A stretch of DNA of 64,000 nt from Balneola sp. EhC07. GTDB taxonomy: Bacteria > Bacteroidota > Rhodothermia > Balneolales > Balneolaceae. The position numbers and the translations under genes were made by a program. Shown here in pieces: positions 10,301 to 30,116 of the stretch (its first letter is position 1; each line of letters begins with the position of its first letter). The notes under the pieces are model-generated. The model was not told the DNA's origin. It searched no databases and was given only the letters and a program-made list of their open reading frames with translations. The stretch is taken from NCBI RefSeq assembly GCF_001650905.1, contig NZ_LXYG01000012.1, forward strand, positions 1 through 64,000, written 5' to 3'.

Positions 10301-11689
10301 AATGATGGCGAAGAAGAGCACAACATTGTATTGAGCCGTGCAGGTGAATTGAAAATTGTTAATGACGAAGGTCAAGTCTTAATCAGCTATAACGTACCTT
10401 ATGGTAGCGAGATGATGGTTGAAGAAGGCGATATGGTTCCAAAAGGAGCACAGCTTTGTAAGTGGGATCCATACAACGCACTGATCTTCTCTGAAATTGA
10501 TGGTACCGTTGAGTACAAAGATATTATCGATGGAGTTACTTCTACCGATGATACTGATGCTCAAACAGGTCACCGTGAAAAAGTTATTACTGACTCCAAG
10601 GATAGATCTCTTGTACCAACACTAGTTGTTAAAGGTGCAAAAGATGTGATCCGCGAAAGTACTCTTCCTGTTGATACTCACGTAGCTATCGACAATGGTG
10701 AGAAAGTTTCTGCAGGTCAGGTAATCGCTAAGATTCCTAGAGCAGCATCTAAATCTAAAGATATTACAGCGGGTCTTCCTCGTGTGACTGAGCTTTTTGA
10801 AGCTCGTTCTCCAAGTGAGCCGGCAGTAGTTTCTGAGATAGATGGTATTGTTGAAATGGGAGGCCGTAAGCGTGGTTCTCAGGAAGTATTTGTTAAATCA
10901 AAAGACGGTACTGATGAGAAGAAGTACTTGATCTCTTTGAGTAAGCATATTCTTGTACAAACCAACGACTTTGTGAAAGCAGGTCAGCCATTATCTGATG
11001 GTACAATTCCTGCACAGGACATTCTAAACATTCTAGGGCCATACGCTGTACAATCGTACTTAGTGAATGAGATTCAGGAAGTTTACCGTTTACAGGGTGT
11101 GAAGATCAATGATAAGCATATCGAGGTTATTGTTAGCACGATGATGCAGAAAGTTGAGATCACTGATCCGGGCGATACAATGTTCCTAGAAGGCGATAAA
11201 GTTGATCGTTTTGAAGTTAATACCAGAAATGACGAATTGATCGGTAAGTTTGTTGTAACCGAAGAAGGTGGCAGTGAGCTTAAGAAAGGAAAGATCCTTG
11301 ATCGTCGTCAGGTAAGAGACATCAACAACGAATTGATCAAAGAAGGCAAAGAAGAGATCCAAACTCGTGAAGCTGAACCTGCAATTTCTCGACCAATTTT
11401 ATTGGGTATTACGAGAGCTGCACTTTCTACTGAAAGTTGGTTATCAGCTGCTTCTTTCCAGGAAACAACGAAGGTACTTACTCAGGCTTCTATTGAAGCT
11501 AAGAAAGACTTCTTACGTGGACTGAAAGAAAACGTAGTTGTTGGACACAAAGTACCAGCCGGTACCGGTCTTCGTGAGTACAATGATCTTATCGTTGGAC
11601 CTACTGAGGAAGTTGATGAAAGTGACGCAGAAGTTGCAGAGATATTTGAAACTCTGGGCGGAAGCGATGAGGAGAAAACAGAAGCTTAG
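7388..11689 (+). CDS. rpoC: DNA-directed RNA polymerase subunit beta'
   Basis: This 1433-residue protein is the beta' subunit. The first zinc site ([20 protein letters not shown]) lies near the N-terminus. The catalytic motif [12 protein letters not shown] carries the three Asp that hold the active-site magnesium. The second zinc site ([17 protein letters not shown]) and the trigger-loop region follow. The start is TTG at 7388 with GGAGG at 7376-7380, matching the TTG start of rpoB. The operon ends at the terminator directly downstream. Confidence 0.99.
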
Positions 11690-11724
11690 GCTTTCTCCAA
11701 TTAACTTTTATCTAAGATAAATTG

Positions 11725-11757
11725 AAAAGCCCCTTCAGAAATGAAGGGGCTTTTTTT
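11725..11757 (+). terminator. Rho-independent terminator of the rpoBC operon
   Basis: AAAAGCCCCTTC pairs with GAAGGGGCTTTT around loop AGAAAT and runs into seven T. It is 35 bases after the rpoC stop. A near copy with the same six-base loop core lies at 14101. Confidence 0.95.
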
Positions 11758-11831
11758 ATGAAAGCCTATTTTCTAACTTGATTTAATAAAGTGATTTTTG
11801 TTTTGCTAGTCTCTAATTAGTAATCTGTGCT

Positions 11832-12668
11832 ATGGGAAAGTTGATTGCATATCAAAAATTAGGAAAAATAGAAAAGTGGTTCGCTTTAAATAAGAATAAG
11901 GCAAATCATTTCTTTGCATTAGCAGCTTTATTAGTTACTGCCAGTGCTATTTTTCAGGATTTTCTTTTTTCAGAAATCAATAATACAGGTTTCTATTTAA
12001 GGGAAGTGCTTCTATTTAAGATCTTTTGGTTATTCTTTATTCCATTCTCCTACATAATTTTTTTTCTGCATAATAAACTCTCTCAAGCATCAATCAAGTC
12101 TGTATATCGAGTTCTATTATTGATCTTGATAATTGCTTCATTGTTTGCAGTACAGGTTCTAAGTTCATCTGTTTTGATCTCAAGTCTTGGTACCGCTTGG
12201 TTTGGGTTTCGAATAACAGTTTGGCAGCTTATTACCACAAAACTGATAAATTACTTAGGAATAGGCTTCTTGTTTTATGTTCTGGCAATTTGGGTGGCAG
12301 AATACATATATCGAACAAACGAAAAATTAAAGAGAGATAAAAAGGTTAAGATTATCACAGTAAGAGAGGGTAAAAAAATTATCCCAATCAACGTTTCTGA
12401 GATAAAATGGATCAGCTCAGATAAACCATACATTTCAATACATACCGAGGAAGGAAAGTTTCTTCACAGTTCTACATTAAAGGAAATTCTGAAAGAATTA
12501 GACAATTCAAACTTCGTACGAATACATCGCTCCACTATTGTAAATGTTTTAGAAATAGAAAAGTTGGTTTCAAGACTAAATGGTGATTATGATGTTTTGA
12601 TGAAAGGGGGAAAAGAGTTGCGCTTAAGTCGAAATTATAAAGATAAACTGAATAGCCGTTTTTTTTGA
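11832..12668 (+). CDS. Membrane-anchored LytTR-family transcriptional regulator
   Basis: This 278-residue protein has four predicted membrane helices (about residues 28-46, 62-82, 92-116, 136-160), a short charged linker and a C-terminal LytTR DNA-binding domain (about 177-278). The LytTR domain is recognised by KWISSDKPYISIHTEEGKFL, FVRIHRSTIVN and the ending LRLSRNYKDKL. It has no response-regulator receiver domain, so it probably senses a membrane signal directly. It is transcribed alone, between the rpoC terminator and a secreted-protein pair, which are possible targets by position only. Confidence 0.85.
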   Translation: MGKLIAYQKLGKIEKWFALNKNKANHFFALAALLVTASAIFQDFLFSEINNTGFYLREVLLFKIFWLFFIPFSYIIFFLHNKLSQASIKSVYRVLLLILIIASLFAVQVLSSSVLISSLGTAWFGFRITVWQLITTKLINYLGIGFLFYVLAIWVAEYIYRTNEKLKRDKKVKIITVREGKKIIPINVSEIKWISSDKPYISIHTEEGKFLHSSTLKEILKELDNSNFVRIHRSTIVNVLEIEKLVSRLNGDYDVLMKGGKELRLSRNYKDKLNSRFF

Positions 12669-12768
12669 TTATCACCTTAGAGTATTAATTACACGTCTTA
12701 GCTTATCAGGGTTTGTTGAAGGTGTCACAATAGCGATAATGAGATGAATTCCAACAAATCTCATATAA

Positions 12769-13386
12769 ATGAAGCTATACCTTTTGATATTTTTCACTCT
12801 AGCCAGTGGGGTGACATGTGCACAATCACAATCTTCAAGTATCGTAGGAGGTCCTTGTGAAGGTTGCGAAGCCGCCTTGGATTATGGAAGTAAAGAACTA
12901 TCTGCAATCGATACCCTGCCTAACTTTGAAAACCATTCTCAAAAAATGAAAATTCAAGGCACTGTATATAAATTAGATGGTATAACGCCGGCAAAAGATG
13001 TGATCATCTATATATATCAGACAAATCAGAAGGGTGTTTACGAAAAGAAAGGTGATGAAACGGGCTTTGCCAGCTATCATGGTATTTACCGGGGATGGGT
13101 CAAAACAAATGAACTTGGCCACTATGCGTTCTATACATTTAAACCGGGTTCCTATCCGGGAAGAACCCAGGCTGCTCATGTTCATTTCACCATCAAAGAG
13201 CCGGATAAAAATGAATATTATATCGATGCAATTGAATTCGCTGATGATCCACTACTGAGTGAAGCGGATAGAGAGAGAAAAAATCCGCGGGGCGGAAATG
13301 GAATAATAGAGTTAACAAAGAAAGGTGATCTGCTTATTGCGGAAAGAGACATAATCCTAGGCTTAAATATTCCAAACTATGAATAA
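12769..13386 (+). CDS. Secreted intradiol ring-cleavage dioxygenase-like protein
   Basis: This 205-residue protein has a signal peptide (about 1-18, ending at TCAQ). The fold is that of the intradiol dioxygenase family (protocatechuate 3,4-dioxygenase beta type). QTNQKGVY gives Tyr91, KPGSYPGR gives Tyr129, and AAHVHF gives His137 and His139, so all four residues expected to bind Fe(III) are present. Known family members open catechol-type rings, but exported ones are poorly understood and the substrate here is unknown. It overlaps the following YceI-like gene by 8 bases, so the two are co-translated. Confidence 0.75.
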   Translation: MKLYLLIFFTLASGVTCAQSQSSSIVGGPCEGCEAALDYGSKELSAIDTLPNFENHSQKMKIQGTVYKLDGITPAKDVIIYIYQTNQKGVYEKKGDETGFASYHGIYRGWVKTNELGHYAFYTFKPGSYPGRTQAAHVHFTIKEPDKNEYYIDAIEFADDPLLSEADRERKNPRGGNGIIELTKKGDLLIAERDIILGLNIPNYE

Positions 13387-13972
13387 GTTAATATTAGTAA
13401 TGGCAGTGTTTCTATTTCTATCACAGTTAAGTGTAGCACAGGAAATCGTGCAAGTACCCATTGATATCAAAGAGTCTGAAGTGAAATGGAAAGGAACTAA
13501 AATGAGAGGTTTAGGAAAACACGAGGGAATTATATCTATAAAAAGCGGGCATTTTGAAACAAAAGATGGAGAGTTTTATGGCGGTAAAATAGTTTTTGAT
13601 ATGAATTCTATTTCGGTTACAGATATTCCTAAACGTGAACCAATTCCAAGAAGAAGATTAAACAATCATTTAAAAAGTGATGACTTTTTTGGAGTTGAAA
13701 AATATCCTGAAGCAGAATTTCTGATTTTGAAGGTACTTAAAAAAGAGAAACAGAATATAACCGTAGAAGGCGAGCTTTCTATACGCGATGTAAAAGATAG
13801 AATCACAGTTTATCTGGAAATAAGACGAGACAATTCAGAAATTAGATCAATAAGTTCTAAACTAGAATTCGACAGATTTAATTGGAATATTGGATATAAA
13901 GGAAGCTGGGCGGATCGTACTTTAGTAGATAAGGAAATTGAGATCACCTTATTATTACATGCAAACAATTAG
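13379..13972 (+). CDS. YceI-family periplasmic lipid-binding protein
   Basis: This 197-residue protein has a signal peptide (about 1-20) and one YceI lipocalin-like domain: SEVKWKGTKMRGLGKHEGII at the start, SDDFFGVEKYPEAEF in the middle and the ending VDKEIEITLLLHA. YceI proteins bind long-chain isoprenoids or amphiphiles in a beta-barrel. It overlaps the dioxygenase-like gene by 8 bases. A shared role in handling a hydrophobic aromatic compound is a reasonable inference but is not shown. Confidence 0.85.
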   Translation: MNKLILVMAVFLFLSQLSVAQEIVQVPIDIKESEVKWKGTKMRGLGKHEGIISIKSGHFETKDGEFYGGKIVFDMNSISVTDIPKREPIPRRRLNNHLKSDDFFGVEKYPEAEFLILKVLKKEKQNITVEGELSIRDVKDRITVYLEIRRDNSEIRSISSKLEFDRFNWNIGYKGSWADRTLVDKEIEITLLLHANN

Positions 13973-14000
13973 CTTTGAGATTAATAATGGAGACTCACCA

Positions 14001-14100
14001 ACTCAGTCCTCCTTGTTTTGAATATGAAATAACCGGAGCTATAATCACTAAAGTTCTTGTACATTTTTTTCGGGAATATATCTTACTGATGATCGATACC
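14001..14100 (-). pseudogene. Decayed fragment of the Asp-box propeller gene found at 19308-20351
   Basis: This intergenic stretch aligns along its whole length with bases about 19422-19522 inside the propeller gene, on the same strand. The run 14071-14099 is identical to 19493-19521 over 29 consecutive bases. Read on the minus strand it gives YRSSVRYIP, as in the intact gene, then diverges. One base is missing after the Gln-Glu-Leu codons, and stop codons follow. It is therefore a dead remnant of a duplicated gene, not a functional ORF. Confidence 0.8.
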
Positions 14101-14134
14101 AAGCCCCTTTAGAAATGAAGGGGCTTATTTATTT
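14101..14134 (+). terminator. Terminator downstream of the dioxygenase/YceI pair
   Basis: AAGCCCCTT (14101-14109) pairs with AAGGGGCTT (14118-14126), followed by ATTTATTT. The loop contains AGAAAT exactly as in the rpoC terminator at 11725. It abuts the decayed gene fragment. Confidence 0.7.
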
Positions 14135-14172
14135 AAAGACCCATTATAAAATATCAAATAGAAGACGTTAGA

Positions 14173-14312
14173 TGTTGATAACTTTGAACTTCAAGCAAAA
14201 AGAGTTAAAAAAATTAGCTTAAATCAATAAATAATATTATTGTTGTCAAGAATTAATAAAAAATCTGATTCAACAAAATTGTGGATAACTTTTTGTTGAA
14301 ATATTATCTACA
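14173..14312. promoter_or_regulatory. AT-rich leader of the motor operon with DnaA-box-like sites
   Basis: The region 14135-14326 has no gene and is very AT-rich. It contains TGTTGATAA (14173-14181, one mismatch to the DnaA box), TGTGGATAA (14280-14288, perfect reverse DnaA box) and TTATCTACA (14304-14312, one mismatch, opposite orientation). These could be a DnaA-responsive control site for the operon that starts at 14327, a weak origin-like cluster, or chance in AT-rich DNA. Confidence 0.3.
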
Positions 14313-14326
14313 GATCGGGGGGTGAA

Positions 14327-16129
14327 ATGAGAAGATCAATAAGTTTCATACTTTTATTAGGGTTTTTTACCCTTAATAATTCTATTGCTCAAATTCCCAG
14401 AAGCAATTCGAATTCACCTGATAAACAATCAGAAGAAACTAAATATGAGCGTTATTACGAAATAGTGCTCGAAAATGCTCTTTCAGAGTATTATGAAAAC
14501 GGCTCTTTTTTGGTGGATGTTCAAGCTGAGGTTGAGCGGGTGTTGGTAGCCAGTGAATACGAAGTAGTGGAAGAATTACCTCCTCTTGAGATAGAAAACC
14601 TTCCGGGTTTACCCGTAATACCTCCCGGTTTAAAAGCTACCAGAACGGGCAGAGATAGTATAAAAGTTACTGGTTTTAACTCCAGTTTCAGATTGAATCA
14701 GCTTACCATACGCATCCTTATAGATACATCCTATACACAGGAAGACTCGGAGTTTATAAATGAAATGGCAGGAATGGTTGCAAATGCCGATCGATTTCGG
14801 GGTGATATCGTAACAGTAGAGAGAAAAATATTTCCAAATCAACAAAGAGGAACTACTTTAACTGCAACAACAAAAGCGGATACTGTATTTATAGGCCAAT
14901 CAAATGATGGAGTTGAGTTAGCGGAAAATAAATTTTTAGGTATAGATTGGAATAATCCTAAACACTTGATGTATGTGATACTTGGTTTATTTATCCTTGC
15001 AATAGCTCTTCTGATTTGGGCACTAATGAAGAGATCAAACTCTGAAAATCAAGACTATAGTGCTGTAAGCGAAGAATTAAAAAATCTTCAGGCAAGTTTA
15101 GAATCAGATGAGAGACCGAAAGACGAACTGAGAGAGTTTAAAAATGATAAACAGGCGAAATTCGAAGAAGAGAAGATGTTCATCATTAACAGAACGGTTA
15201 GTCAGCCCGAAACAATTGCAAAATTAATCGAAGATCTGATAAATGATAATGAAGATGAAGGTCTTGTAAAAGCTGTACGAGCAATATTCAGTACCGACCC
15301 AAAGATTATAGATGTTCTTCAACCTTACCTTGACGATAAGATACATGATTCAATTCTGTTCGGATTAACGAACATAGAAACGATACCGGTCAGTGAAAAA
15401 GCAGAAGAAGTTACTGAGTTCAAGAAGAAATTATTAGCTCTAAAAGTATCAAAAAATAAAGGAGATGATGATAATCACCTTTTTGAATTTCTGAATCAGC
15501 TTACTAATCAGCAGCTTTTGCATCTTATTAGAGGAGAGTCGGATGAAATGATTGCGATTTTACTTGCTCAGCTATCCGGTGACAGATCAAGCTTCGTGTT
15601 ACAAAAACTGGATGAGAATAAGAGAATTCCTATTGTTCTTAAAATGGGAAAAATAGCAAACATACCAATCTCAATTTACAAGAAAGTAGCTGCTCATTTT
15701 TCTCACAAGGCTCTTACAGTTTCAGATATGAAATATGTGGCCGCTGATGGTGTTGAGAGCATTCTGGATACCATTGATAATTTACCTGTAACGGAACAGC
15801 AGAGTTTTGTTAACTCAATAGCAGAGAAGGATTTGAATCTCGCCAAGAAAATACGGAAGTACTTTGTAGCTTTTGATGACATCCCAAATGTTAACGATGA
15901 GATTCTTCAGACTGCTTTAGAAGATTCGACCACCGATGATTTAATAAAAGCTCTCTATAATGCAAAAGAACCTGTAAAGGCTAAAATATTGAGTGTCAGA
16001 CCTGATCGTGAAAAGGAACTCATTTTAAGTGAATTAAAGAATAATCAGGAATTCACATCCATTGAAATTGAAGGGGCCAAAAAGAATATTCTTTTACTAA
16101 TAAGAAAAGTTCTCAAAAGCAGGGGGTAG
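14327..16129 (+). CDS. FliF-FliG-like fusion protein: periplasmic ring domain, one TM helix, cytoplasmic switch/torque domain
   Basis: This 600-residue protein has a signal peptide (1-21). A periplasmic segment (about 42-170) resembles the end of FliF: QLTIRILIDTSYTQED, then RFRGDIVTVERKIF, as in the FliF ring-building motif just before its second membrane helix. One TM helix follows (about 214-233), then a linker and a cytoplasmic region with FliG-like middle (about 388-460) and C-terminal (about 468-595) domains. The last 62 residues align with E. coli FliG without gaps through the torque helix. Arg561 sits at FliG Arg281 and Glu569 at Asp289, while Lys264, Asp288 and Arg297 are replaced by Tyr, Ser and Thr. 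The FliM-binding EHPQ motif is replaced by ESDE (404-407). It heads an operon ending in motA- and motB-like genes. Function as a ring-plus-rotor is inferred. Confidence 0.85.
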   Translation: MRRSISFILLLGFFTLNNSIAQIPRSNSNSPDKQSEETKYERYYEIVLENALSEYYENGSFLVDVQAEVERVLVASEYEVVEELPPLEIENLPGLPVIPPGLKATRTGRDSIKVTGFNSSFRLNQLTIRILIDTSYTQEDSEFINEMAGMVANADRFRGDIVTVERKIFPNQQRGTTLTATTKADTVFIGQSNDGVELAENKFLGIDWNNPKHLMYVILGLFILAIALLIWALMKRSNSENQDYSAVSEELKNLQASLESDERPKDELREFKNDKQAKFEEEKMFIINRTVSQPETIAKLIEDLINDNEDEGLVKAVRAIFSTDPKIIDVLQPYLDDKIHDSILFGLTNIETIPVSEKAEEVTEFKKKLLALKVSKNKGDDDNHLFEFLNQLTNQQLLHLIRGESDEMIAILLAQLSGDRSSFVLQKLDENKRIPIVLKMGKIANIPISIYKKVAAHFSHKALTVSDMKYVAADGVESILDTIDNLPVTEQQSFVNSIAEKDLNLAKKIRKYFVAFDDIPNVNDEILQTALEDSTTDDLIKALYNAKEPVKAKILSVRPDREKELILSELKNNQEFTSIEIEGAKKNILLLIRKVLKSRG

Positions 16130-16132
16130 AAA

Positions 16133-17206
16133 ATGAATGTTAAAGTACTTCCTGTTATTAGAGTTATAGCATTTTTGTTTTTCATTTCTCTGATGGGTAG
16201 AAATGTATTTGCACAGTCTGATGCAGTTTTGGTAGAGAAAGCTGTGGCTAAATTGCAGGATATGACATCTGATATACCTTCTGATGTAAGGCGAGTAACG
16301 GTGTACCGATTAAACTACAATGAAAATTACCTGTCAGAAGAAACAGTAGGATATATAGTTTCTCGTATAGAACAAACATTCAGGGAATATTCAGCTCTTA
16401 CCATTATATCCCCACCTGAATTAAAGCCCACGAATGAACTCAAAATATTTGGAAGAGATTCTACTATCCAAATTTCAAATACGAAAGGGCGAAGTCTTGC
16501 CGAGTCCAATAGTGAATTGCTTTTAGAAACTGCTCAAAAGTACTCATTGCATGCATTAATTGAAGTCTCTGTTCAAAAAAAGGCTATAGAGGGTTTTATA
16601 ATTAATATAAGAATGATAAGACCTGAATCTCAGGAAGTTGTTTGGGTGAAAACTCTTATATCAAATCAGGTATTTCCAAAAGAGGATATAGATAAAGGGA
16701 AACTTATCTTTATAAATGTAGGGGTAGAAACAATTATTGGGGAGAGTTTTAAAGTAGACAGCATTACTACAGACGCTGAACAACAAATACTTAATTTTAA
16801 TGCATCTGTAACTTTCCGGCAGCCCATTGATAATTCTGTTTCTTCTTATTTTGGGATCAGGAGTGGATTAAACATTTATAAAGGAACCCAAGATAGTCTA
16901 TACAATGCTACATTGTTAAATCTCGGTGTTGTTTTTCACTATGGTTTGGGAGAAGAGAACGAGTCAATAAATGCAAATCGTTTGTTGCTTACTCTTGACG
17001 CTGATGTTCGTTTTGCACTAACAAAGTATGAAGGCAGTATTTTTACGATATCACCGGGATTACAATTTAATTTCACAGAATCAATATCAGTAGCACTATA
17101 TGCCAGAAATATAATATCAGGTGATGAGCTAAGGCAGAAAGACGTAAATCAAAGTATAACATTTAATCGGTTAAGTTATGGCTTACAATGTGTCTTTAGA
17201 TTTTAG
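16133..17206 (+). CDS. Motor-operon envelope protein: FlgO/CsgG-like N-domain, probable outer-membrane C-domain
   Basis: This 357-residue protein has a signal peptide (1-27, ending VFAQ). Residues about 30-215 form a soluble alpha/beta domain that loosely resembles the FlgO/CsgG/TolB-N group (VRRVTVYRLNYNENYLSEE, then a helix and a TIISPPEL strand). The family call is tentative. Residues about 225-357 alternate polar and hydrophobic residues in strands and end in Phe, as outer-membrane barrels do. It starts 3 bases after the FliF-FliG-like gene and overlaps the next gene by 29 bases. It may anchor the motor to the outer membrane or transmit its output. Confidence 0.6.
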   Translation: MNVKVLPVIRVIAFLFFISLMGRNVFAQSDAVLVEKAVAKLQDMTSDIPSDVRRVTVYRLNYNENYLSEETVGYIVSRIEQTFREYSALTIISPPELKPTNELKIFGRDSTIQISNTKGRSLAESNSELLLETAQKYSLHALIEVSVQKKAIEGFIINIRMIRPESQEVVWVKTLISNQVFPKEDIDKGKLIFINVGVETIIGESFKVDSITTDAEQQILNFNASVTFRQPIDNSVSSYFGIRSGLNIYKGTQDSLYNATLLNLGVVFHYGLGEENESINANRLLLTLDADVRFALTKYEGSIFTISPGLQFNFTESISVALYARNIISGDELRQKDVNQSITFNRLSYGLQCVFRF

Positions 17207-17813
17207 AACAAAACTTATTATAGCAGCCGTAGCTGTGGTTTGTTTAGCTATTACCGGTTGTGCTACAACAGAGCAAACACCTGAAGAGAGTAGCTCAGCG
17301 GGAATTACGCCTGAAACACCAGCAGAGGATTCTTCTTCTTTAGTTAAGGAAGAAGCCGGTGAGAGCAGGGTTTCAAATTCAATAAAAGTTATCTACAAGA
17401 ACAAGAATACAGATTTGGAAGTAACACTAGATCCAAACAAAGAAGACTTTTTTCTGGATCTTAGTGGAATGAGTCCGGCGGAGAAAGATACTATCACTAT
17501 TGCTGATTCTACACTTATAAAACAACGGGCAGTTGATATGCAAAAATTACTGTCCTCATTCAGGGCAGCTCAGGATCTGTTTTACAAAGGAGAGTACAAC
17601 GAAGCTTTACTAAAGGTGAACGAATCACTAAGAGTTCAGGAAACTGCAGACGCTTATGGCCTTAAAGGGACGATCTATTTTATGTTGAATAGAAAATCAG
17701 CGACCAGAGAAAACTGGGATAAAGCAGTTAAAATGAATCCTGATATCATGATACCGAATATTCCTGAACTTGAAGATATTATTAAAGATATAAAAGGGGA
17801 TACAGAACAATGA
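17178..17813 (+). CDS. TPR-containing lipoprotein of the motor operon
   Basis: This 211-residue protein has a lipoprotein signal peptide with lipobox ITGC (Cys28), a Ser/Glu-rich low-complexity stretch (about 30-60), and a helical C-terminal half (about 110-195). That half has TPR-type helix pairs (LFYKGEYNEALLKVNESLRV, then AYGLKGTIYFMLNRKSATRE). TPR lipoproteins usually scaffold envelope complexes. It overlaps the upstream gene by 29 bases and the motA-like gene by 4 bases, showing tight coupling. A GTG at 17190 is an alternative start. I do not recognise a named family. Confidence 0.7.
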   Translation: MAYNVSLDFRTKLIIAAVAVVCLAITGCATTEQTPEESSSAGITPETPAEDSSSLVKEEAGESRVSNSIKVIYKNKNTDLEVTLDPNKEDFFLDLSGMSPAEKDTITIADSTLIKQRAVDMQKLLSSFRAAQDLFYKGEYNEALLKVNESLRVQETADAYGLKGTIYFMLNRKSATRENWDKAVKMNPDIMIPNIPELEDIIKDIKGDTEQ

Positions 17814-18634
17814 GATTATCGCTTACAAATATTTTAGGAGTATTTTTTAGTGTAGGGATTTTAATTTTTGGAGTCACAGAAATCACCGGTGCTACAGGAT
17901 ATATAAACTCGATTCCTACGTTAAGTAAATATCAGTTTTTGAATATCCCAAGTTTGTTTATAGTTCTTGGTGGGGTTTTAAATGCTGCATTTATTACTTA
18001 TCAGCCTAAATATGTGGGGCAGGCACTGGTTAGTGTGTTTTATTTGTTCAACCAATCCAGAATATCACATAAAAAGCTAAGTGAAGATCTGAATAATATT
18101 CTTGAATGGAGTGATCAGGTTAAAGCAAACCGAATAAAGGCAATGAGCTCGTTGGAAAAAGAGAATGGAGATGAAGTAACCGGGTATTTTTTTTCTTTGA
18201 TAAATACGAATTATACCAATGATGAGATCAAGGAATTTGCAGGAGTAAGTATTGAAGAGCATTACTTCCGTAAAATGGTAGTAGTTGATGTTCTACGTGC
18301 TATGGGTGGAGCGGCACCTTCATTTGGGATGTTTGGTACACTGTTTGGTTTGGTAGTAATGTTAGGTCAATTAGAAAACCCTTCCGGTATGGGGCCTGGT
18401 CTTGCGGCAGCATTAATTACAACATTGTATGGTATTTCTTTGGCCAGATTTATTTTTTATCCAATGTCAGAGAAGTTGAAAAATATTGCTCAGCAAAATC
18501 GGTATCGTGAATACTTCATGCTTGAAGGTGTGTTACTTATTAATTCAAAGAAATCGAGTTTTTACATTCAGGATAAGCTAAAAACATATTTAAGAAGAGA
18601 CCTTAGAGGGCAGCAAAAAAAAGATAAGGTATAA
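17810..18634 (+). CDS. MotA-like stator (ion channel) subunit
   Basis: This 274-residue protein has the full MotA architecture: four TM helices (about 8-28, 44-64, 162-184, 195-217) with a cytoplasmic loop between helices 2 and 3. Signatures are PSLFIVLGG in helix 2, AAPSFGMFGTLFGLVVML in helix 3 and the helix-4 block ending YPMSEKLK. Pro170 and Pro218 match the E. coli MotA prolines 173 and 222. In the loop, NRIKAMSSLEK places Arg108 and Glu116 with the same spacing as MotA Arg90 and Glu98, which contact FliG. The start ATG overlaps the upstream stop (ATGA). It is more like flagellar MotA than TolQ/ExbB. Confidence 0.92.
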   Translation: MRLSLTNILGVFFSVGILIFGVTEITGATGYINSIPTLSKYQFLNIPSLFIVLGGVLNAAFITYQPKYVGQALVSVFYLFNQSRISHKKLSEDLNNILEWSDQVKANRIKAMSSLEKENGDEVTGYFFSLINTNYTNDEIKEFAGVSIEEHYFRKMVVVDVLRAMGGAAPSFGMFGTLFGLVVMLGQLENPSGMGPGLAAALITTLYGISLARFIFYPMSEKLKNIAQQNRYREYFMLEGVLLINSKKSSFYIQDKLKTYLRRDLRGQQKKDKV

Positions 18635-18639
18635 ATCTG

Positions 18640-19314
18640 TTGGATTTTAAGAACCTCCATAGAAAAACTGAATTAGATACCCATGAGGAAGATCAGGAAT
18701 GGCTATTAACGTACAGTGATATGATTACGTTATTATTAGCATTTTTCGCTGTATTAATTGCAGTGTCATATGTAGATCTAAACTTATGGGAGCAAATGAA
18801 GCAGGGTCTAAGATCTGAAATAAATAAACAGGAGAATGTTCAGACTCCTCTGGCTGAGGTTAAAAAAGACCTTGACGAAAAACTTGCAGAGGAAAGAGAG
18901 GCTGAACTGGTTGATATTACTTTAGACCGGGAAGGAATAAAATTATTTTTCAATTCAAGCTCATTTTATAACTCAGGAGAAGCTAATCTGCTGCCTACAG
19001 GACAACAAATCATTGATAAAGTAACTCAGGCAATGAATGATCTGGGCTACTATAAATTTAAAGTAGATGTGGAAGGGCACACTGACAATGTCCCGATCAA
19101 TACTCCTGTTTATCCATCAAATTGGGAACTGTCTGTTGCAAGAGCATCCGGAGTTGTGAAGTATTTTATCCAGGAAGGTATTGAGCCTGAAAGAATTAAA
19201 GCATCGGGTTATGCGGATACAAAGCCTATCGTCCCTCATGTAGATGAAACCGGAAACGATATAGTTGAAAACAGAGCTTTAAACCGAAGAATTGTGATTA
19301 GAATTTACTACTGA
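18640..19314 (+). CDS. MotB-like stator subunit with OmpA peptidoglycan-binding domain
   Basis: This 224-residue protein has one TM helix after a short cytoplasmic tail. WLLTYSDMITLLLAFFAVLI contains the ion-carrying aspartate, Asp27 (MotB Asp32 in E. coli). A plug/linker region (about 50-95) precedes an OmpA-like peptidoglycan-binding domain (about 96-224: VEGHTDNVPI, NWELSVARASGVVKYF, ALNRRIVIRI). MotB-type proteins tether the stator to the cell wall and gate ion flow with MotA. The start is TTG at 18640, 5 bases after the motA-like stop, with AAGG 10 bases upstream. The 3' end overlaps the convergent gene by 7 bases. Confidence 0.95.
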   Translation: MDFKNLHRKTELDTHEEDQEWLLTYSDMITLLLAFFAVLIAVSYVDLNLWEQMKQGLRSEINKQENVQTPLAEVKKDLDEKLAEEREAELVDITLDREGIKLFFNSSSFYNSGEANLLPTGQQIIDKVTQAMNDLGYYKFKVDVEGHTDNVPINTPVYPSNWELSVARASGVVKYFIQEGIEPERIKASGYADTKPIVPHVDETGNDIVENRALNRRIVIRIYY

Positions 19315-20351
19315 TCAGTCAGTTCCAATTTCCCAATCTTTCCTGAGCCTGCAAGCCAAGCAGCCTTTCCATCTTTGGTAAAACGAACAGTATAAAAAGA
19401 CTCTTCACTGACTTTCTTCCAGCTTAGTCCTCCGTCTTTTGAATATGATATACCCGGAGTTCCAACCGCTACAAGTTCCTGTCCATTACTACCGGGAATA
19501 TATCTTACTGATGATCGATACGAGGGCCCTTCACCTTCTGCCGTTAGAGTCCATGTTCTTCCACCGTCAGATGTAATGGCTTTGTTCTCTGTGTTTTTAT
19601 CTTTCTGATTCCAGTCTCCACCGACTATTATCCCATTTTTTGAATCATAAAAGTGGCTTGAGAAAATTCCCGTCATTTGACCTCCCTGAACAATGGGAGT
19701 ATTATACACTCTCCAGGTTTCTCCTTTATTTTCACTATGAAAAACCCGTGCTCTTGTTCCGCCTGAAACCAGCCAAACGTTATCTCCGATAATATTCACA
19801 TTTGAGTTACTTGCTGCAAATCCCGCTTCTCCATTTACTACGATGGGAAGAGAGTCACAGGAAATTTTCCTCCAGTTATCACCACTATTTTCGGTAATTA
19901 TTACAGAAAGGCATTCATCAATAGGATCACCTACAGCCACACCAAAACCGTTTTTGGAAATAGCCATAGCATTGTAGAATGCTGAAGGATCATCTTCCTT
20001 ATAAACCAATTTCCAATTTTTCCCTTCATCTGTACTTTTATATAACAAGGCGGGTGAAGCTATACTCAGGACGAAAACGGCACTATCTGTTACAGCGATG
20101 GATCGAAACTCGGGCTTTAAGGTATCATAGCTAATCGTGTCAATCTCAAAACTTACACCTTCAGTTTTAGTGAATCCAACCTGACCATTTGACCCTGCAA
20201 ACCACATGGTGTTTTTATCAATAGCTTCGATTGCCCGGATACTTATGTCAGGAATTTCGAAAGTAGTGACCTGAAAATTCTTTTCTTTATTTACAGTACA
20301 TGAAAGAAACAAAAGTGAAACAGATAGAACGGTAAGAATGGTTTTCATCAT
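19308..20351 (-). CDS. Asp-box (BNR/Ycf48-like) beta-propeller lipoprotein
   Basis: This 347-residue protein has a lipoprotein signal peptide (LFLSC, Cys18). The body has at least five Asp-box repeats: STDEGKNW, TENSGDNW, SENKGETW, TSDGGRTW and SKDGGLSW. This defines a beta-propeller of the sialidase/Ycf48/Hcf136 type. Proteins like this are often misnamed oxidoreductase or photosystem assembly factor. No catalytic sialidase residues are evident and the function is unknown. It is convergent with the motor operon (7-base overlap). A decayed duplicate of one of its segments lies about 5 kb away at 14001-14100. ATG at 20346 is an equally good start. Confidence 0.8.
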   Translation of the reverse strand: MMKTILTVLSVSLLFLSCTVNKEKNFQVTTFEIPDISIRAIEAIDKNTMWFAGSNGQVGFTKTEGVSFEIDTISYDTLKPEFRSIAVTDSAVFVLSIASPALLYKSTDEGKNWKLVYKEDDPSAFYNAMAISKNGFGVAVGDPIDECLSVIITENSGDNWRKISCDSLPIVVNGEAGFAASNSNVNIIGDNVWLVSGGTRARVFHSENKGETWRVYNTPIVQGGQMTGIFSSHFYDSKNGIIVGGDWNQKDKNTENKAITSDGGRTWTLTAEGEGPSYRSSVRYIPGSNGQELVAVGTPGISYSKDGGLSWKKVSEESFYTVRFTKDGKAAWLAGSGKIGKLELTDQ

Positions 20352-20388
20352 AAAGTGAATTTATTAATCAGGACAATATCAGATTAGG

Positions 20389-20416
20389 AAACAGAATTCA
20401 AGTAAGAATTCTGTTT
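20389..20416. terminator. Perfect 11-bp hairpin downstream of fadJ
   Basis: AAACAGAATTC (20389-20399) pairs with GAATTCTGTTT (20406-20416) around AAGTAA. It lies between the start of the propeller lipoprotein and the 3' end of fadJ, both minus strand. On the minus strand only TTT follows the stem. A T-rich tail is better on the plus side. Probably the fadJ terminator, but orientation is uncertain. Confidence 0.5.
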
Positions 20417-20523
20417 TAATTTCTTTTCACACAATGGGTTATCTGCCAGATGGATTCCGGAGAGAAGAAAATATACAAGAAGAGACTTCAGATATTATCA
20501 ATATCTAGAGGGAAATTGAGAGA

Positions 20524-22641
20524 TCAGTCTTTATGAAAAGTTTCTCCTTTTTTAGCTTTATCCATTAAAATTGATGCTGGTTTGAATCTTGGACCAAATT
20601 CTTCAGCAAAGCCATTTAGTTTTTTGACAATCACATCGGCTCCTAAACGATCAATGTACCTGAAAGGACCGCCAAGGAATGGAGGGAATCCTAAGCCTAA
20701 AATTGCTCCAAGATCCCCATCAGTTGCTGATTTAAGAATTCCTTCTTCCAGACAATATGCAGCTTCATTGATCATGGTCAATGCCATTCGGAACTGAGCA
20801 GTTTCCATATCAGGTTTTGTTCTGTTTGTACCACCGAAGTATTTATAGATTCCGGTATTCACTTCTTTTTTCTTTCCGCCTGAATATGAATACATCCCTT
20901 TTTTATTCTTGCGACCCAAATAACCTTCATCAACGAGCTCCTGAGCTTTTTCTGAAGATCTTGCTCCTCTTTTATCAAACATTGGCTTCATAGTTTCTCC
21001 AACATGAGCGCCTACATCAAATCCAACTTCATCTAAAAGAGCCATTGGGCCAACGGGGTATCCAAACTGTTTCATAGCTTTGTCCAGAAATTCAATGGAT
21101 GCTCCTTCTTCAAGCAAAAGCAAAGCTTCATTCATAAATGGAGCTAATATTCTGGTGGTATAAAATCCGGGACCGTCATTTACAACGATTACGGTCTTTC
21201 CCTGCTTTACGCCTACTTCATAAGCAGTGGCAGTAACCCAATCAGCAGTTTGTTCAGTAGTAATGATCTCCAGTAGGGGCATCTTCTGCACCGGAGAGAA
21301 ATAGTGCATGCCGATAACGTTTTTCGGATGTGATGATGCTTTAGCGATTTCAGAAATAGGAAGCGAAGAAGTATTAGAAGCAAAAATTGTATCATCAGAA
21401 GTCACTTCTTCCACTTCTTTTATGATTTTATGCTTGAGGTTCAGATCTTCAAACACAGCTTCTATAACAAGGTTCAATCCATCGAAACCGGCATATGAAT
21501 CTACACCGGTAACCCGGCTGGCAATTTCATCTCTTTCAAACTTAGTGATGATCCTTTTTTCCGATTTTTTATTCAGATCTTCCCAGATGCCTTGTTCGCC
21601 TTTTGCTGCGGATTCTAGATCACGATCTTTTAGTAGTACGGAGTATTTACCCTTGTTAATACTTACATCAGCAATTCCCGACCCCATTAGTCCTGCTCCA
21701 AGAACACCGATCTTGTTAACAGGTTTTACCAGATCTTTTTGAGGGTTTTTCTTGGCGTTGTTCATTGCAAAAAACAGATTCACCAAAGCTCTGGATTCCT
21801 GAGTTGCTCCCAGTTCACCAAAGAGTTTAGCTTCATTTAGTAAACCTTTTTCTTTGCCGTGCTTGTAGCCATATTCAACAGCATCTAAGATCTTTTCAGG
21901 AGCAGGGTAATTTCCTTTTGTTTGAGCGAGTGTTTGTTTAAGAGCCTGCGAAAAAACGATCTTACGTCCGAGGCCATTACCCTCGATCATCTTTTCCATA
22001 GAAGTTCTTTTATCTGTTCGCTCAAATTTGCCTGATGAAACACTATGAACAGCTTTTATGGCAGCTTCTTCCAGAGCGTCTTTGTGAACAAGCTCATCTA
22101 CTAATCCCATTTTATAAGCTTGACGCCCATAAATATTTTTTCCGGTTAACATATAATTCAGTGATTTCTGAATCCCGATCAATCTCGGTAGACGTTGAGT
22201 TCCTCCCGTTCCGGGCAGAATACCCAGTTTCACTTCAGGCAATGCCATAATAGTTTTGGAATGTCCGGAGGCAATTCGATAATGACAGGCCAAAGAAAGC
22301 TCTAGGCCGCCTCCCATACAACTTCCGTGTATTGCCACCACTATTGGTTTTGAAGAGCTCTCAACTCTGTTTAATATCTTATGTCCGTCCAGGCTTAATT
22401 GCTCTATTTCTTCAGCTGTTTCCCGGGCTTTGAACATTTCTATATCAGCACCGGCAATAAAGTTATTTTCCTTTCCGCTGATGAGGACAGCACCTTTTAG
22501 AGAGGGATCAGAATCTAGATCATCCAGAAAGCTTGCAAACTGATCCATCATCGCTTCATTCAATGTGTTTACTTTTTCTCCCGGTTGATCAAGAGTTATA
22601 ATAGCGACGTTTTCTTTTTTTGTGATGTTTAAGTAACTCAT
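20524..22641 (-). CDS. fadJ: Fatty-acid oxidation complex alpha subunit (enoyl-CoA hydratase / 3-hydroxyacyl-CoA dehydrogenase)
   Basis: This 705-residue bifunctional protein begins with an enoyl-CoA hydratase domain (about 1-190: NFIAGADIEMF, MGGGLELSLACHYRIA with one catalytic Glu, LPEVKLGILPGTGGTQRLPR with the other). A Rossmann NAD domain follows (about 310-490: KIGVLGAGLMGSGIADV, GMHYFSPVQKMPLLEII), then the dehydrogenase C-terminal domain (GPGFYTTRILAPFMNEA). It catalyses hydration and NAD-dependent oxidation in beta-oxidation. It lies downstream of the thiolase gene on the same strand and is probably transcribed with it. FadJ versus FadB is assigned from the partner thiolase type. Confidence 0.93.
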   Translation of the reverse strand: MSYLNITKKENVAIITLDQPGEKVNTLNEAMMDQFASFLDDLDSDPSLKGAVLISGKENNFIAGADIEMFKARETAEEIEQLSLDGHKILNRVESSSKPIVVAIHGSCMGGGLELSLACHYRIASGHSKTIMALPEVKLGILPGTGGTQRLPRLIGIQKSLNYMLTGKNIYGRQAYKMGLVDELVHKDALEEAAIKAVHSVSSGKFERTDKRTSMEKMIEGNGLGRKIVFSQALKQTLAQTKGNYPAPEKILDAVEYGYKHGKEKGLLNEAKLFGELGATQESRALVNLFFAMNNAKKNPQKDLVKPVNKIGVLGAGLMGSGIADVSINKGKYSVLLKDRDLESAAKGEQGIWEDLNKKSEKRIITKFERDEIASRVTGVDSYAGFDGLNLVIEAVFEDLNLKHKIIKEVEEVTSDDTIFASNTSSLPISEIAKASSHPKNVIGMHYFSPVQKMPLLEIITTEQTADWVTATAYEVGVKQGKTVIVVNDGPGFYTTRILAPFMNEALLLLEEGASIEFLDKAMKQFGYPVGPMALLDEVGFDVGAHVGETMKPMFDKRGARSSEKAQELVDEGYLGRKNKKGMYSYSGGKKKEVNTGIYKYFGGTNRTKPDMETAQFRMALTMINEAAYCLEEGILKSATDGDLGAILGLGFPPFLGGPFRYIDRLGADVIVKKLNGFAEEFGPRFKPASILMDKAKKGETFHKD

Positions 22642-22745
22642 AAGTAGATATTAGAATGTATATAAAACCTATTGCTGAATCCCTTCTATGTAAAGAAAAG
22701 CTCAGGTACTAATTTCTTGTAATTTGAAAAATTGATCATTGTCAT

Positions 22746-24092
22746 TTATCCTTGATATCTCTCAAGGATTATCGCATGTCCTTGTCCACCTGCGGCGCAA
22801 GCAGTAACCAAGGCGTATCTTCCCCCTTCAAGATGAAGGCGATTAGCAGCAGTTGTAACAAGTCTTACTCCGGTAGCACCAAAAGGATGTCCTAATGAAA
22901 GAGAACCGCCCATGGTGTTAATTTTATCCATTGGAATCTGTCCAACTTTGGAGTCTCTGTTTAAAGACTCTTTAGTAAATTTCTCAGAATCCAAAGCAGC
23001 CAATACGGCAAGAACCTGCCCGGCAAAGGCTTCATGAATTTCAAAAACGTCAATATCTTCAAGTTTAAGATTCATTTTATCCAACACTTTTGGCGTTGCA
23101 TATGCAGGACCAAGTAGCAATTCATCTTTAGGATCCTGAGATACAAAATTATATTCTCTCAAATACGCTTTTGGTTTTAGACCTAAGGATAATGCCGTTT
23201 GTTCTTCCATTATAAAAGATGCAGAAGCCCCATCCGTTAAAAAAGAAGCATTTCCGGCTGTAATAGTTCCGTGAGGTTTTATAAAAGCAGGTCTTAACTT
23301 TGCCAGTTTTTCAATTGAAGTGTCTGAACGAAATCCATTGTCATTGTTAACAACAGAAAATTTTGGTGGTACTTTTACGGGGAAGATTTCATCATCCAGC
23401 AGACCTTCCTGAGTAGCTTTTGCTGCTAAATGATGTGAGCGCATTGCAAATTCATCCTGATCCTTCCGCGAGACCCCAAACCTTGCTGCCATTCGGTCTG
23501 CACTTTTGCCCATAGTTTCTCCGGTAGAAAATTCTGCAATAGCAGGTAATTCAGGGAGAAGGTCTTTGGGACGAAGTCCTTTTAAGAATTTTAGAAAATC
23601 TAAAGGAGATTTATACTTTCGTGCTTCCAGCACTTTTTGGCGAAATTTTTTCTTAAATCGAACCGGAATGTCTGACATCGTTTCCGTTCCTCCGGCTAAA
23701 ATGATCTTGGCTTGTCCTGATCTTATCAGGTCAACTCCACTGGCAACAGCTTGATTGGAAGAAATACAAGCCAATGCTATTGTAAACGCTGGGACTGTGT
23801 TGGGGATGCCTGCACCTAAAGCACTTTCTCTGGCCACATTACTGGTACGAACTTCCTGGATGACATTTCCCATAATGACCCGGTCGATGCTCGAAGGATC
23901 AACAGCATTACGTGCTAATAGTCCTTGAATGGCATAACGTCCGAGGTCATAAGCCATAAGATCGTTGTAATCTGTACCGGATTTTAAAAAGGGAGTTCTG
24001 ATTCCGTCAACCAGCACTGCAGTAAAAGGATAATCTTTCAAAATAGTTGGATTTATTTCAGCTTTCAGCCATAAGTTAACAGTGTTAACCAA
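22746..24092 (-). CDS. fadI: 3-ketoacyl-CoA thiolase (acetyl-CoA acyltransferase)
   Basis: This protein (up to 448 residues) is a FadI-type thiolase, which performs the last cleavage step of beta-oxidation. The nucleophilic Cys is in ALACISSNQAVASG. LSLGHPFGATGVRL and CAAGGQGHAIILE supply the active-site His and second Cys. The start is uncertain. The frame opens at TTG 24092, but the conserved region begins at DYPFTAVLVDGIRTPF, some 20 residues later. A 15-base near-palindrome falls in the intervening N-terminal codons, so the true start may be downstream at another non-ATG codon. fadJ follows after about 100 bases. Confidence 0.92.
   Translation of the reverse strand: MVNTVNLWLKAEINPTILKDYPFTAVLVDGIRTPFLKSGTDYNDLMAYDLGRYAIQGLLARNAVDPSSIDRVIMGNVIQEVRTSNVARESALGAGIPNTVPAFTIALACISSNQAVASGVDLIRSGQAKIILAGGTETMSDIPVRFKKKFRQKVLEARKYKSPLDFLKFLKGLRPKDLLPELPAIAEFSTGETMGKSADRMAARFGVSRKDQDEFAMRSHHLAAKATQEGLLDDEIFPVKVPPKFSVVNNDNGFRSDTSIEKLAKLRPAFIKPHGTITAGNASFLTDGASASFIMEEQTALSLGLKPKAYLREYNFVSQDPKDELLLGPAYATPKVLDKMNLKLEDIDVFEIHEAFAGQVLAVLAALDSEKFTKESLNRDSKVGQIPMDKINTMGGSLSLGHPFGATGVRLVTTAANRLHLEGGRYALVTACAAGGQGHAIILERYQG
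24075..24089. promoter_or_regulatory. GTTAAC inverted repeat at the fadI start (possible operator)
   Basis: GTTAACAGTGTTAAC has two 6-base self-complementary arms around AGT. It sits where a repressor of fadI-fadJ could bind, but if TTG 24092 is the real start it lies inside the coding region. No regulator gene is adjacent. Confidence 0.25.
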
Positions 24093-24161
24093 ATAATCAA
24101 TATTTGTTGAAATATTTCTTTGTCTGCATTGTAAATGTTCATATATTTGTCGCCCTTGTTA

Positions 24162-24236
24162 GGGCGATTAGCTCAGTTGGTTTAGAGCACCTCGTTTACA
24201 CCGAGGGGGTCGGGGGTTCGAGTCCCTCATCGCCCA
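24162..24236 (+). tRNA. trnV: tRNA-Val (anticodon TAC)
   Basis: The acceptor stem GGGCGAT (24162-24168) pairs with ATCGCCC (24229-24235), with discriminator A24236 and an encoded CCA at 24237-24239. The anticodon stem CCTCG/CGAGG encloses TTTACAC, giving anticodon TAC. The T loop is TTCGAGT. It is a single tRNA followed by a terminator. Confidence 0.97.
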
Positions 24237-24269
24237 CCACTTGTTTTAAATAACAAACACCAAATTCCA

Positions 24270-24306
24270 AAAGCCACATTGATTTCGAAACAATGTGGCT
24301 TTTTTT
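24270..24306 (+). terminator. Rho-independent terminator after tRNA-Val
   Basis: AAAGCCACATTG (24270-24281) pairs with CAATGTGGCTTT (24291-24302) around ATTTCGAAA, followed by a T-run. It lies about 30 bases downstream of the tRNA. Confidence 0.93.
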
Positions 24307-24445
24307 GTTTTATAGCAAGGTTAGTTAGTAGCTCTTCTTTCTCCAATGAAACCAAACATGCTATAAAAACATTAATGGTTGATATAGTAATTATGACTAA
24401 ATTAAAGTAATGTAGCACAATCATTAATCCTGCTCAGAAATCAGT

Positions 24446-26437: not shown

Positions 26438-26513
26438 CAGAGGTCATTAAAAGGATTTTTTATAAAAAAAAACTATATTAAACAATGCACTCTCTATCTA
26501 ATGGCGTGTTATT

Positions 26514-26765
26514 ATGGAAATTAAATTTGTTAAACGTTCGGCAATAAACTCTTCTAAGAAAAGAAATTCGAAGTTTAAACCTCTTCTTGAAGCTATCGAT
26601 AAGCTGAAACCTGGGGGGCAAGCACTCGAGGTATCTTATACAAGTGATAAAAATGTAAACTCAATGCGCACAGCAGTTTACCAACACAGCAGAGTTAAAA
26701 ATATTAAGATCAAGAGTAAAAAAGATCCATCCATAAAAAAAATTCACTTTTACAGAGAAGAATAA
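26514..26765 (+). CDS. Small basic hypothetical protein
   Basis: This 83-residue Lys-rich protein (MEIKFVKRSAINSSKKRNSK start, KIHFYREE end) has no signal peptide and no recognisable domain. The spacing of short strands and basic residues (TAVYQHSRVKNIKIKSKKD) would suit a small nucleic-acid-binding fold, but that is only an impression. It stands alone between the histidine kinase and egtB on the same strand. Its coding character is moderate. Confidence 0.55.
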   Translation: MEIKFVKRSAINSSKKRNSKFKPLLEAIDKLKPGGQALEVSYTSDKNVNSMRTAVYQHSRVKNIKIKSKKDPSIKKIHFYREE

Positions 26766-26832
26766 GGAATGAGTTTTTTGGCTTTGGTGTTGATTCCCTA
26801 CATTATGAGGAGACACCAAACTGCCCTGAACT

Positions 26833-28119: not shown

Positions 28120-28124
28120 ATCCA

Positions 28125-29069: not shown

Positions 29070-29149
29070 CAATAGGTCATTCATTAAATGTTACGTACAT
29101 CGACGAAAAAATGTGCCCTTAGTATTTAAGATGAGATAGAGAACAAAAT

Positions 29150-29178
29150 CCGTCAGCCGTGCAAAGCCCGACAGACGG
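29150..29178. repeat. GC-rich imperfect palindrome (REP-like)
   Basis: CCGTCAGCCGTGC (29150-29162) and GCCCGACAGACGG (29166-29178) form an imperfect 13-base hairpin with an AAA loop, in the 275-base gap between egtD and the convergent plsC-like gene. It is far more GC-rich than its surroundings. The rest of the gap (29070-29344) shows no gene I can support. Such elements are usually dispersed repeats, but I see only one copy of this type here. Confidence 0.45.
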
Positions 29179-30082: not shown

Positions 30083-30116
30083 AGTGGAAAATCAATATTC
30101 AAAGGTACATTTCCAA

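Follow-up and report, generated by a model that had tools for sequence, protein, structure and literature searches.

Gene content and conservation of the operon

The window analysed here, a stretch of 64,000 nucleotides, carries on its + strand (positions 14327-19314) a tightly packed five-gene operon that encodes, in this order, a FliF–FliG fusion of 600 aa (14327..16129), an outer-membrane barrel protein of 357 aa (16133..17206), a TPR lipoprotein of 211 aa (17178..17813), a MotA-like stator subunit of 274 aa (17810..18634) and a MotB-like stator subunit of 224 aa with a TTG start (18640..19314). All five ORFs and the domains that identify them were confirmed where a sequence-only reading of the same DNA had placed them. 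That reading had also described four of the junctions as short or overlapping, which is true of every one, since the first and fourth junctions are gaps of 3 and 5 nt and the second and third are overlaps of 29 and 4 nt. The 354-bp intergenic region directly upstream of the fusion gene (13973..14326, + strand) must hold the operon promoter. It contains one Bacteroidota-like −7 element, TAACTTTG at 14179, a weak candidate by position only and without a clear −33 element, and a Rfam scan of the operon and this upstream region gave zero matches.

The second and third genes have envelope features. The 357-aa protein starts with a signal peptide and ends in a C-terminal Phe (...FRF), and its predicted model combines a TolB-N/LpoB/PelC-like periplasmic domain (residues about 29-180) with an OmpX/PagL-like barrel (residues about 192-357), which bears out the earlier suggestion of a secreted protein with a probable outer-membrane C-terminus. 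The outer-membrane protein that this system has in another class is its homologue (hhalign E 9.4e-6, 267 columns). The 211-aa lipoprotein carries a lipobox (AITG-C28) and TPR, and is conserved in every locus.

In 15/15 loci taken from named Balneolaceae/Rhodothermia records, several of them metagenome-assembled genomes, the five genes stand in the same order, which is kept also in genomes without FlhA. Gene 1 identity ranges from 41 to 96% across these loci. Ka/Ks values of 0.02-0.13 reveal strong purifying selection on the operon. A set with this order and this degree of constraint is far beyond chance. In a family of another class, the same five parts occur in a different gene order. The subfamily of the window operon (system I) is patchy, as it is found in 3/8 genomes of the genus. 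No conserved adhesin gene lies beside system I in the 15 loci, and the window operon contains no propeller or filament gene, nor any gene for a moved part.

The FliF–FliG fusion and its stator proteins

The fusion consists of a signal peptide, a periplasmic RBM3-like (S-ring) domain, one TM helix and a cytoplasmic FliG N/M/C portion. The periplasmic region (residues about 30-175; 14414..14851, + strand), which resembles the RBM3/beta-collar of FliF and displays an FxRGDxxxV signature, was recognized by hhalign and, in paralogues, by PF08345. Alignment of the fusion with genuine FliF gave an E of 7.7e-7 over 149 columns (FliF columns 227-419), whereas five control families reached 8e-4 at best; system I alone matched FliF weakly (E 0.002). 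PF08345, the FliF C-terminal/RBM3 model, matched fusions of three families weakly at a consistent place, with one match above the cut-off, and the predicted model of the periplasmic part is of low confidence. RBM1, RBM2 and the first TM helix of FliF are missing. Judged from these profile comparisons, the FliF part is real but reduced, its periplasmic match being limited to the S-ring (RBM3) region. The TM helix that follows (residues 211-235; 14957..15031, + strand) is helical in the model and has its hydrophobicity maximum from residue 213.

The cytoplasmic portion is related to FliG. Foldseek aligned the fusion with full-length FliG (8wiw) at E 2.6e-10 over 316 columns, on a chain of 310 residues, a PDB sequence search with gene 1 returned FliG matches, and TIGR00207 fliG reached E 2.5e-23, yet below its equivalog cut-off. 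The FliG_N-like helical domain (residues 273-371; 15143..15439, + strand) is assigned by structure only because Pfam gives no match there. FliG_M (15476..15724, + strand; Pfam E 2e-10) carries ESDE at residues 404-407 (15536-15547), where flagellar FliG has its FliM-binding EHPQ, a motif present in 13/13 flagellar FliG versus 0/27 fusions. The FliG_C torque domain (15815..16111, + strand; Pfam E 2e-18), already proposed from the sequence, also superimposes on FliG of 8ucs (TMt 0.77, rmsd 1.7). Its residues R561 (16007-16009) and E569 (16031-16033) align with R281 and D289 of E. coli FliG; in systems I and II (the latter a paralogous set described below), the first is Arg in 23/23 and the second D/E in 23/23. 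Other elements of the torque surface differ, K264 and R297 not being kept, and system III is devoid of the D289 acid. In the FliG tree, a 100/100 branch separates all 27 fusions from flagellar FliG. The relationship of gene 1 to FliF and FliG, on which the sequence-only reading depended, thus stands by HMM, profile–profile and fold comparison.

The stator is of the MotA/MotB type. The MotA-like protein matches MotA_ExbB (E 9e-19), and its best NCBIfam model is MotP (E 1e-35), compared with E 0.002 for TolQ and 0.02 for ExbB. Its loop R108...E116 resembles R90...E98 of E. coli MotA; the automatic alignment shifts this pair by three residues, and system II keeps it only in part. A 95/94 branch parts the fusion-linked stators from flagellar MotA. 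The MotB-like protein has a TM segment, a MotB plug and an OmpA peptidoglycan-binding domain; the channel residue Asp27 (18718-18720) singled out previously lies in the TM segment, and this Asp is kept in all related MotB proteins. The genome encodes just two MotA genes, one in the window operon and one in the paralogous operon. An ordinary TolQR/ExbBD energiser was rejected on the grounds of the stator type.

Flagellar genes in the host and its family

The sequence-only reading had named a full flagellar gene set elsewhere in the genome as what would overturn it, and this possibility was rejected. In the marine, Balneola-like host, whose genome (98.6% complete) was covered by family searches and selected stretches, FlhA is absent, being present in 0/8 genomes of the genus; FliM has no match, FliN/SpoA gives nothing above noise, and no flagellin N domain appears at E <= 1. 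There is no separate FliF either, the sole FliF_C match being the paralogous fusion; instead of the complete FliF of a flagellum, with two TM helices and RBM1-3, an RBM3-like region and one TM helix are present.

At the family level, FlhA occurs in 32/92 genomes. A flagellar loss has been proposed in Balneolaceae (PMC9909488), and with FlhA left in about a third of the family, the operon might be read as a decaying remnant or a fragment of a flagellum without present function. We consider this very improbable and rejected it. The operon is under strong purifying selection, its rotor and stator form a long separate lineage in the FliG and MotA trees, it has acquired conserved new partners in the outer-membrane protein and the TPR lipoprotein, and the fusion system coexists with flagellar genes in three genomes (G017, G031 and G082) that have FlhA and a true FliF alongside it. 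Such coexistence could also suggest an accessory module that swaps places with a true flagellar motor wherever one exists, since FlhA is present in 11 of the 24 genomes of the family that carry a full-length fusion. Its probability is close to negligible: the other 13 are without FlhA, ten of them near-complete, and none of the fusions retains the FliM-binding motif. For the window's own genome, an accessory role is contradicted.

The same genome encodes 60 Por_Secre_tail (T9SS-sorted) surface proteins. The GldM model TIGR03517 had no match in it, nor in the control genomes. A function of the window operon as the general T9SS motor was rejected on account of the patchiness of system I. Gliding, which the sequence-only reading had put forward as a use, would imply that the rotor moves an outer-membrane-linked track or adhesin so that cells glide without flagella. 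Rotary motors do power gliding in other Bacteroidota (PMC13104615), and the host is non-flagellated and rich in sorted surface proteins. However, gliding is unreported for Balneolaeota (PMC5167729), system I is present in a minority of the genus and no conserved adhesin accompanies it. With nothing specific to support it, this use is improbable.

A proposed envelope motor and its relation to known systems

What does stand of the former interpretation is its core, a minimal ion-driven rotor/stator acting on the envelope, which is the best-supported reading because no flagellar set is found, the FliF/FliG homology holds and the gene order is conserved. A second locus of the same genome (system II, contig C15) gives an indication of its output. 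There, FliF–FliG, TPR, MotA and MotB genes are joined to usher-, chaperone- and pilin-like genes, an arrangement that recurs in another class. The usher-like outer-membrane protein matches PF00577 in 2/12 members (E 7e-8), the PapD-like chaperone gives a weak Pfam match in 2/9 members (E 0.003), and the small, secreted pilin-like genes were called by position and a weak DUF4402 match; searching PDB sequences with profiles of the usher and the chaperone returned nothing useful, and Pfam on the members did better. These three putative components resemble those of chaperone–usher pili. The paralogous system differs from such pili by a C-terminal TPR on the usher-like protein and by the FliF–FliG, TPR lipoprotein, MotA and MotB genes in the same row. 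Since the usher-like outer-membrane end adjoins chaperone- and pilin-like genes, the paralogous motor most likely acts on a chaperone–usher-type pilus. This usher-linked second copy points to a pilus or outer-membrane output.

We propose that the product of the window operon is probably a rotor/stator that spans the envelope, runs on ion flow and drives outer-membrane machinery, being of flagellar ancestry without belonging to a flagellum. Ring formation, rotation, ion type and output are inferred from homology, gene sets, motifs and selection. The fusion would form an inner-membrane ring, with the S-ring (RBM3) as its sole FliF part and a FliG ring of its own, which would make a FliM/FliN C-ring and a direction switch unneeded. 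MotA/MotB units would be anchored to peptidoglycan via the OmpA domain of MotB, and ion flow through Asp27 would push on the FliG torque helix. At the outer membrane, the force may be received or guided by the 357-aa protein together with the TPR lipoprotein; in the paralogous system, this place is taken by the usher-like protein, which carries a TPR itself. As for the window system, it most likely powers a related process of the outer membrane or the surface, and the part set in motion would be encoded outside the operon. Artificial FliF–FliG fusions are able to assemble and rotate in Salmonella (PMC4768692).

The same parts could alternatively work as an energiser rather than as a rotary propeller, the MotAB units and the FliF–FliG ring passing force to the outer membrane in the manner of Tol-Pal/Ton to secrete, assemble or maintain outer-membrane components, with limited or no full rotation. 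The TolB-N-, LpoB- and PelC-like domain of the outer-membrane protein, the usher and pilin-like genes of the sister system and an operon devoid of propeller or filament genes agree with this option. We regard it as rather unlikely, given that TolQR/ExbBD-type systems have no FliG-like rotor, that systems I and II retain FliG_C with its R281/D289-type charges, and that MotA/MotB give much better matches to flagellar stators than to TolQ/ExbB.

Returning to the rotor/stator motor, chances are about even that such systems form a separate ancient class of FliG/MotAB envelope rotors that turn or energise a chaperone–usher-type pilus in one branch and an outer-membrane barrel ring in the other. With a sister set tied to pilus assembly, it is probable that other surface machines, too, are driven by motors of the flagellar type. 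To our knowledge, the only known role of FliG with MotAB is as the torque core of the flagellum, and the assembly of chaperone–usher pili is generally considered independent of ion-motive force. If the class is real, FliG/MotAB torque would not be exclusive to flagella, and a pilus acted on by the sister system would be the first ion-driven one of the chaperone–usher type. More generally, a conserved rotor-plus-stator without switch, export gate, rod, hook or filament would demonstrate that the torque module can exist independently, which bears on the question of what use half a flagellar motor can be. The five-gene set is also small enough to be rebuilt and tested in a laboratory host.

Among known machines, Tol-Pal/ExbBD and Agl-Glt likewise couple ion flow to the envelope through MotA/MotB-like channel proteins, and the outer-membrane partner found here shares the TolB-like fold. 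We know of no FliF/FliG ring in these energisers or in the Agl-Glt gliding motor, whereas the window stators are of the flagellar type. The T9SS/gliding motor GldLM is also ion-driven, belongs to the same broad bacterial group and links the inner to the outer membrane; it lacks a FliG-type rotor and is described as non-homologous to MotAB (PMC13104615). A survey reported at least one rotor protein and no filament in 11% of non-motile species and raised a possible alternative function, a question on which the present system bears; we know of no fusion, operon, partners or system described in that survey (PMC12199754). Searching the open-access literature for FliG/MotAB systems that lack a flagellum, or for natural FliF–FliG fusions accompanied by stators, retrieved the Chlamydia fusion alone. 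In the Chlamydiaceae, which have no flagella either, FliF is likewise naturally joined to a FliG domain, in a protein of about 330 aa made of RBM2 and FliG_M alone, and the Chlamydia flagellar genes, FliF, FliL and FlhA only, are associated with the injectisome (PMC4768692). The window system has neither the RBM2-type region, nor FliG_M alone, nor FlhA; it combines RBM3 and a full FliG with stators and outer-membrane parts, and has no export gate. Another close relative is the bacterial flagellar motor, with which it shares FliG N/M/C, the FliF RBM3, MotA, and a MotB that has the plug, the Asp and the OmpA domain, together with the equivalents of R281 and D/E289 in systems I and II. It differs by fusing FliF to FliG, by the loss of RBM1, RBM2, the first TM helix and EHPQ, by a genome without FliM, FliN, FlhA and flagellin, and by two new operon members, an outer-membrane barrel protein and a TPR lipoprotein.

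The operon and its proteins

As the sequence-only reading had described, five genes lie on the same strand with short or overlapping junctions: on the forward strand, genes for a FliF-FliG fusion (gene 1, 14327-16129), an outer-membrane (OM) protein (gene 2, 16133-17206), a TPR lipoprotein (gene 3, 17178-17813), a MotA-like protein (gene 4, 17810-18634) and a MotB-like protein (gene 5, 18640-19314) follow one another at +3, -29, -4 and +5 nt. The flanking genes include none of flagellar type on either side: a LytTR regulator, an intradiol-dioxygenase-like gene and a YceI gene lie 5' of the operon, and a BNR/YCF48-like gene and a fatty-acid oxidation gene lie 3' on the opposite strand. The membrane-bound LytTR-type transcription regulator (11832-12668), 5' of the operon's neighbours, is a candidate regulator.

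The FliF-FliG likeness proposed for gene 1 held up in both halves, with the FliF comparison weak for system I (the window-type five-gene set) alone. On the FliG side, FliG_M (E 2.4e-10) and FliG_C (E 1.9e-18) are accompanied by a TIGR00207 fliG match across 212 residues (E 2.5e-23, under the equivalog cut-off) and by PDB FliG chains (best E 1e-14). In the AlphaFold model (mean pLDDT 59 overall), the cytoplasmic part alone is confident, and its fold resembles complete FliG 8wiw (E 2.6e-10, 316 columns), including a FliG N-terminal domain that is invisible to Pfam; the C domain resembles FliG from 8ucs, a MotAB-FliG complex (TM 0.77 by target, rmsd 1.7). On the FliF side, PF08345 gives weak matches to fusions from three families (E about 0.002-0.05, one match over cut-off), always with the profile's C-terminal half and directly before the TM helix. 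A profile of 27 fusion N-termini detected genuine FliF with E 7.7e-7 in an alignment of 149 columns (FliF 227-419) that terminates in a common RGD motif, while five unrelated control profiles gave E 8e-4 or worse. The system I subfamily by itself reached FliF at E 0.002 only, but it is linked to both remaining fusion subfamilies (E 2.5e-26 and 2.3e-14). In FliF, the S-ring is formed by RBM3/beta-collar and the export gate is held by the RBM2 ring (PMC11481574); an RBM3-only FliF is self-consistent in a genome devoid of an export gate.

The assignment of genes 4 and 5 as MotA-like and MotB-like stators with an ion-carrying Asp was likewise confirmed. Gene 4 is best described by MotP (E 1e-35), TolQ (E 0.002) and ExbB (E 0.02) being far weaker; gene 5 matches the MotD, MotS and MotB models, with plug and OmpA domains, and the channel Asp is kept in all related MotB proteins. 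The R-x7-E loop of system I MotA (R108...E116 in the window, RIKAMSSLE) resembles R90...E98 of E. coli (RQMGMFSLE), but since automatic alignment sets this loop three residues off, R108/E116 as its putative counterpart is treated as a lead. The gene 2 model (pLDDT 77) predicts two domains: the periplasmic one resembles LpoB (TM 0.68 by target) as well as TolB-N and PelC, and after it comes a barrel of 8-10 strands similar to OmpX or PagL. Gene 3 combines a lipobox with TPRs.

A conserved lineage independent of flagella

Conservation of the gene order among relatives, a check raised by the earlier reading, was found in 15/15 loci from named records, with flanks that vary between genera. Among named relatives, Balneola sp. 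HXMU1428-10 is closest, its gene 1 being 96% identical. Compared with two relatives, the five genes give Ka/Ks ratios of 0.02-0.13, which are rough given that some Ks values are saturated. A family of another class (f40) carries the same five parts in the order OM protein-TPR-MotA-MotB-fusion (three loci, L041, L043 and L044), and the f40 OM protein can be aligned to gene 2 (267 columns, E 9.4e-6).

A flagellar set elsewhere in the genome was one refuting case put forward earlier, and none is present: the 3.62-Mb assembly (98.6% complete, the window lying in contig 12) yielded no FlhA, FliM or flagellin, no real FliN/SpoA match, and FliF_C solely in a second fusion on contig 15. It holds only two MotA genes, one per motor system, and FlhA was found in 0/8 genomes of the genus. 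Published work is in accord: flagellar assembly genes are missing from Balneola (PMC9909488), and a proteome study pointed to B. vulgaris being non-motile and having no flagellum (PMC9027524), contrary to one taxonomic table that enters flagella for this species (PMC5167729); given these conflicting records, any appendage seen on it by microscopy is perhaps worth re-examining. The genome also encodes 60 Por_Secre_tail (T9SS-type) sorting domains, and the GldM model matched neither this nor any control genome. Across the family, the full-length fusion occurs in 24 of 92 genomes, 11 with FlhA and 13 without (10 of these 13 near-complete); the motor set is therefore independent of flagella.

In an unrooted FliG tree, a 100/100 branch divides 27 fusions from 13 flagellar FliG, those of flagellated Balneolaceae included, and in an unrooted MotA tree a 95/94 branch divides fusion-linked stators from flagellar MotA of the same genomes; being unrooted, these trees give neither age nor direction, and they contain some long branches. 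All 13 flagellar FliG have the FliM-binding motif EHPQ (PMC7355467), against 0/27 fusions. At the positions of the E. coli torque residues R281 and D289, all 23 fusions of system I and the usher-linked system II have Arg and Asp/Glu, respectively, and the further group, system III, has Lys and Arg/His. Judged from these residues, the window's lineage has lost the switch interface and retained the torque interface.

An usher-linked sister system

Contig 15 carries pilin-like genes, a chaperone-like gene, an usher-like protein (993 aa, TPR at its C-terminus), the second FliF-FliG fusion, a TPR lipoprotein, MotA and MotB, in a minus-strand operon at about 7912-18676 of locus L018 (record bases 14000-33000). 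In its MotB (L018:7912-9645, minus strand), a long C-terminal extension contains SPOR domains. SPOR domains of other proteins bind denuded septal peptidoglycan and, by analogy, this MotB may localise the machine to division sites or cell poles. Among the usher-like proteins, 2/12 members match PF00577 (E 7e-8) and one matches a PefC-type usher model (E 4e-4); of the chaperone-like proteins, 2/9 match PapD_N (E 0.003). The pilin-like assignment draws on size, signal peptide, position and a single weak DUF4402 match. This gene arrangement is also seen in further genera of Balneolaceae and, as locus L110, in the other class, in an f40 genome (G534) that carries the OM-barrel type (L111) as well. 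It hints at a tie between the motor and surface-fibre export, the strongest functional clue, and perhaps the second operon tells more than that of the window.

Two variants adjoin usher-like sequences. A short protein in L039 (genome G189; 7857-8888, minus strand), with the fusion's periplasmic domain and no FliG, is possibly a motor-less variant. A 512-aa fusion variant in L040 (genome G420; 8892-10430, minus strand) combines LysM with FliG_M; it gave no FliG_C match, and neither MotA nor MotB was seen beside it.

Mechanism and comparison with known machines

If the motor works as is established for flagella, ions flowing through MotAB would push the FliG ring. Judging by how they are built, the OM protein and the TPR lipoprotein may take up or guide the motion; in system II, the moved part is probably a pilus or its usher. 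The machine may perform either full rotation or a stroke-like energising. By analogy, a fused rotor should be workable, since in Salmonella artificially joined FliF and FliG assemble and rotate (work cited in PMC4768692); lacking FliM/FliN, it would turn one way only.

In the open-licence literature, covering 5.4 million papers, a natural FliF-FliG fusion was found in Chlamydia only, which work outside that literature could change; the Chlamydia fusion differs in domain make-up and has no stators. One survey detected rotor genes in 11% of non-motile species, and raises another function for them only as a possibility (PMC12199754). The torque module of the window system is homologous to that of the flagellum, but the system fails most of the features that define a flagellum. 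Because of this, and because no other known machine matches it, we consider the motor system categorically new as judged against the open-licence literature.
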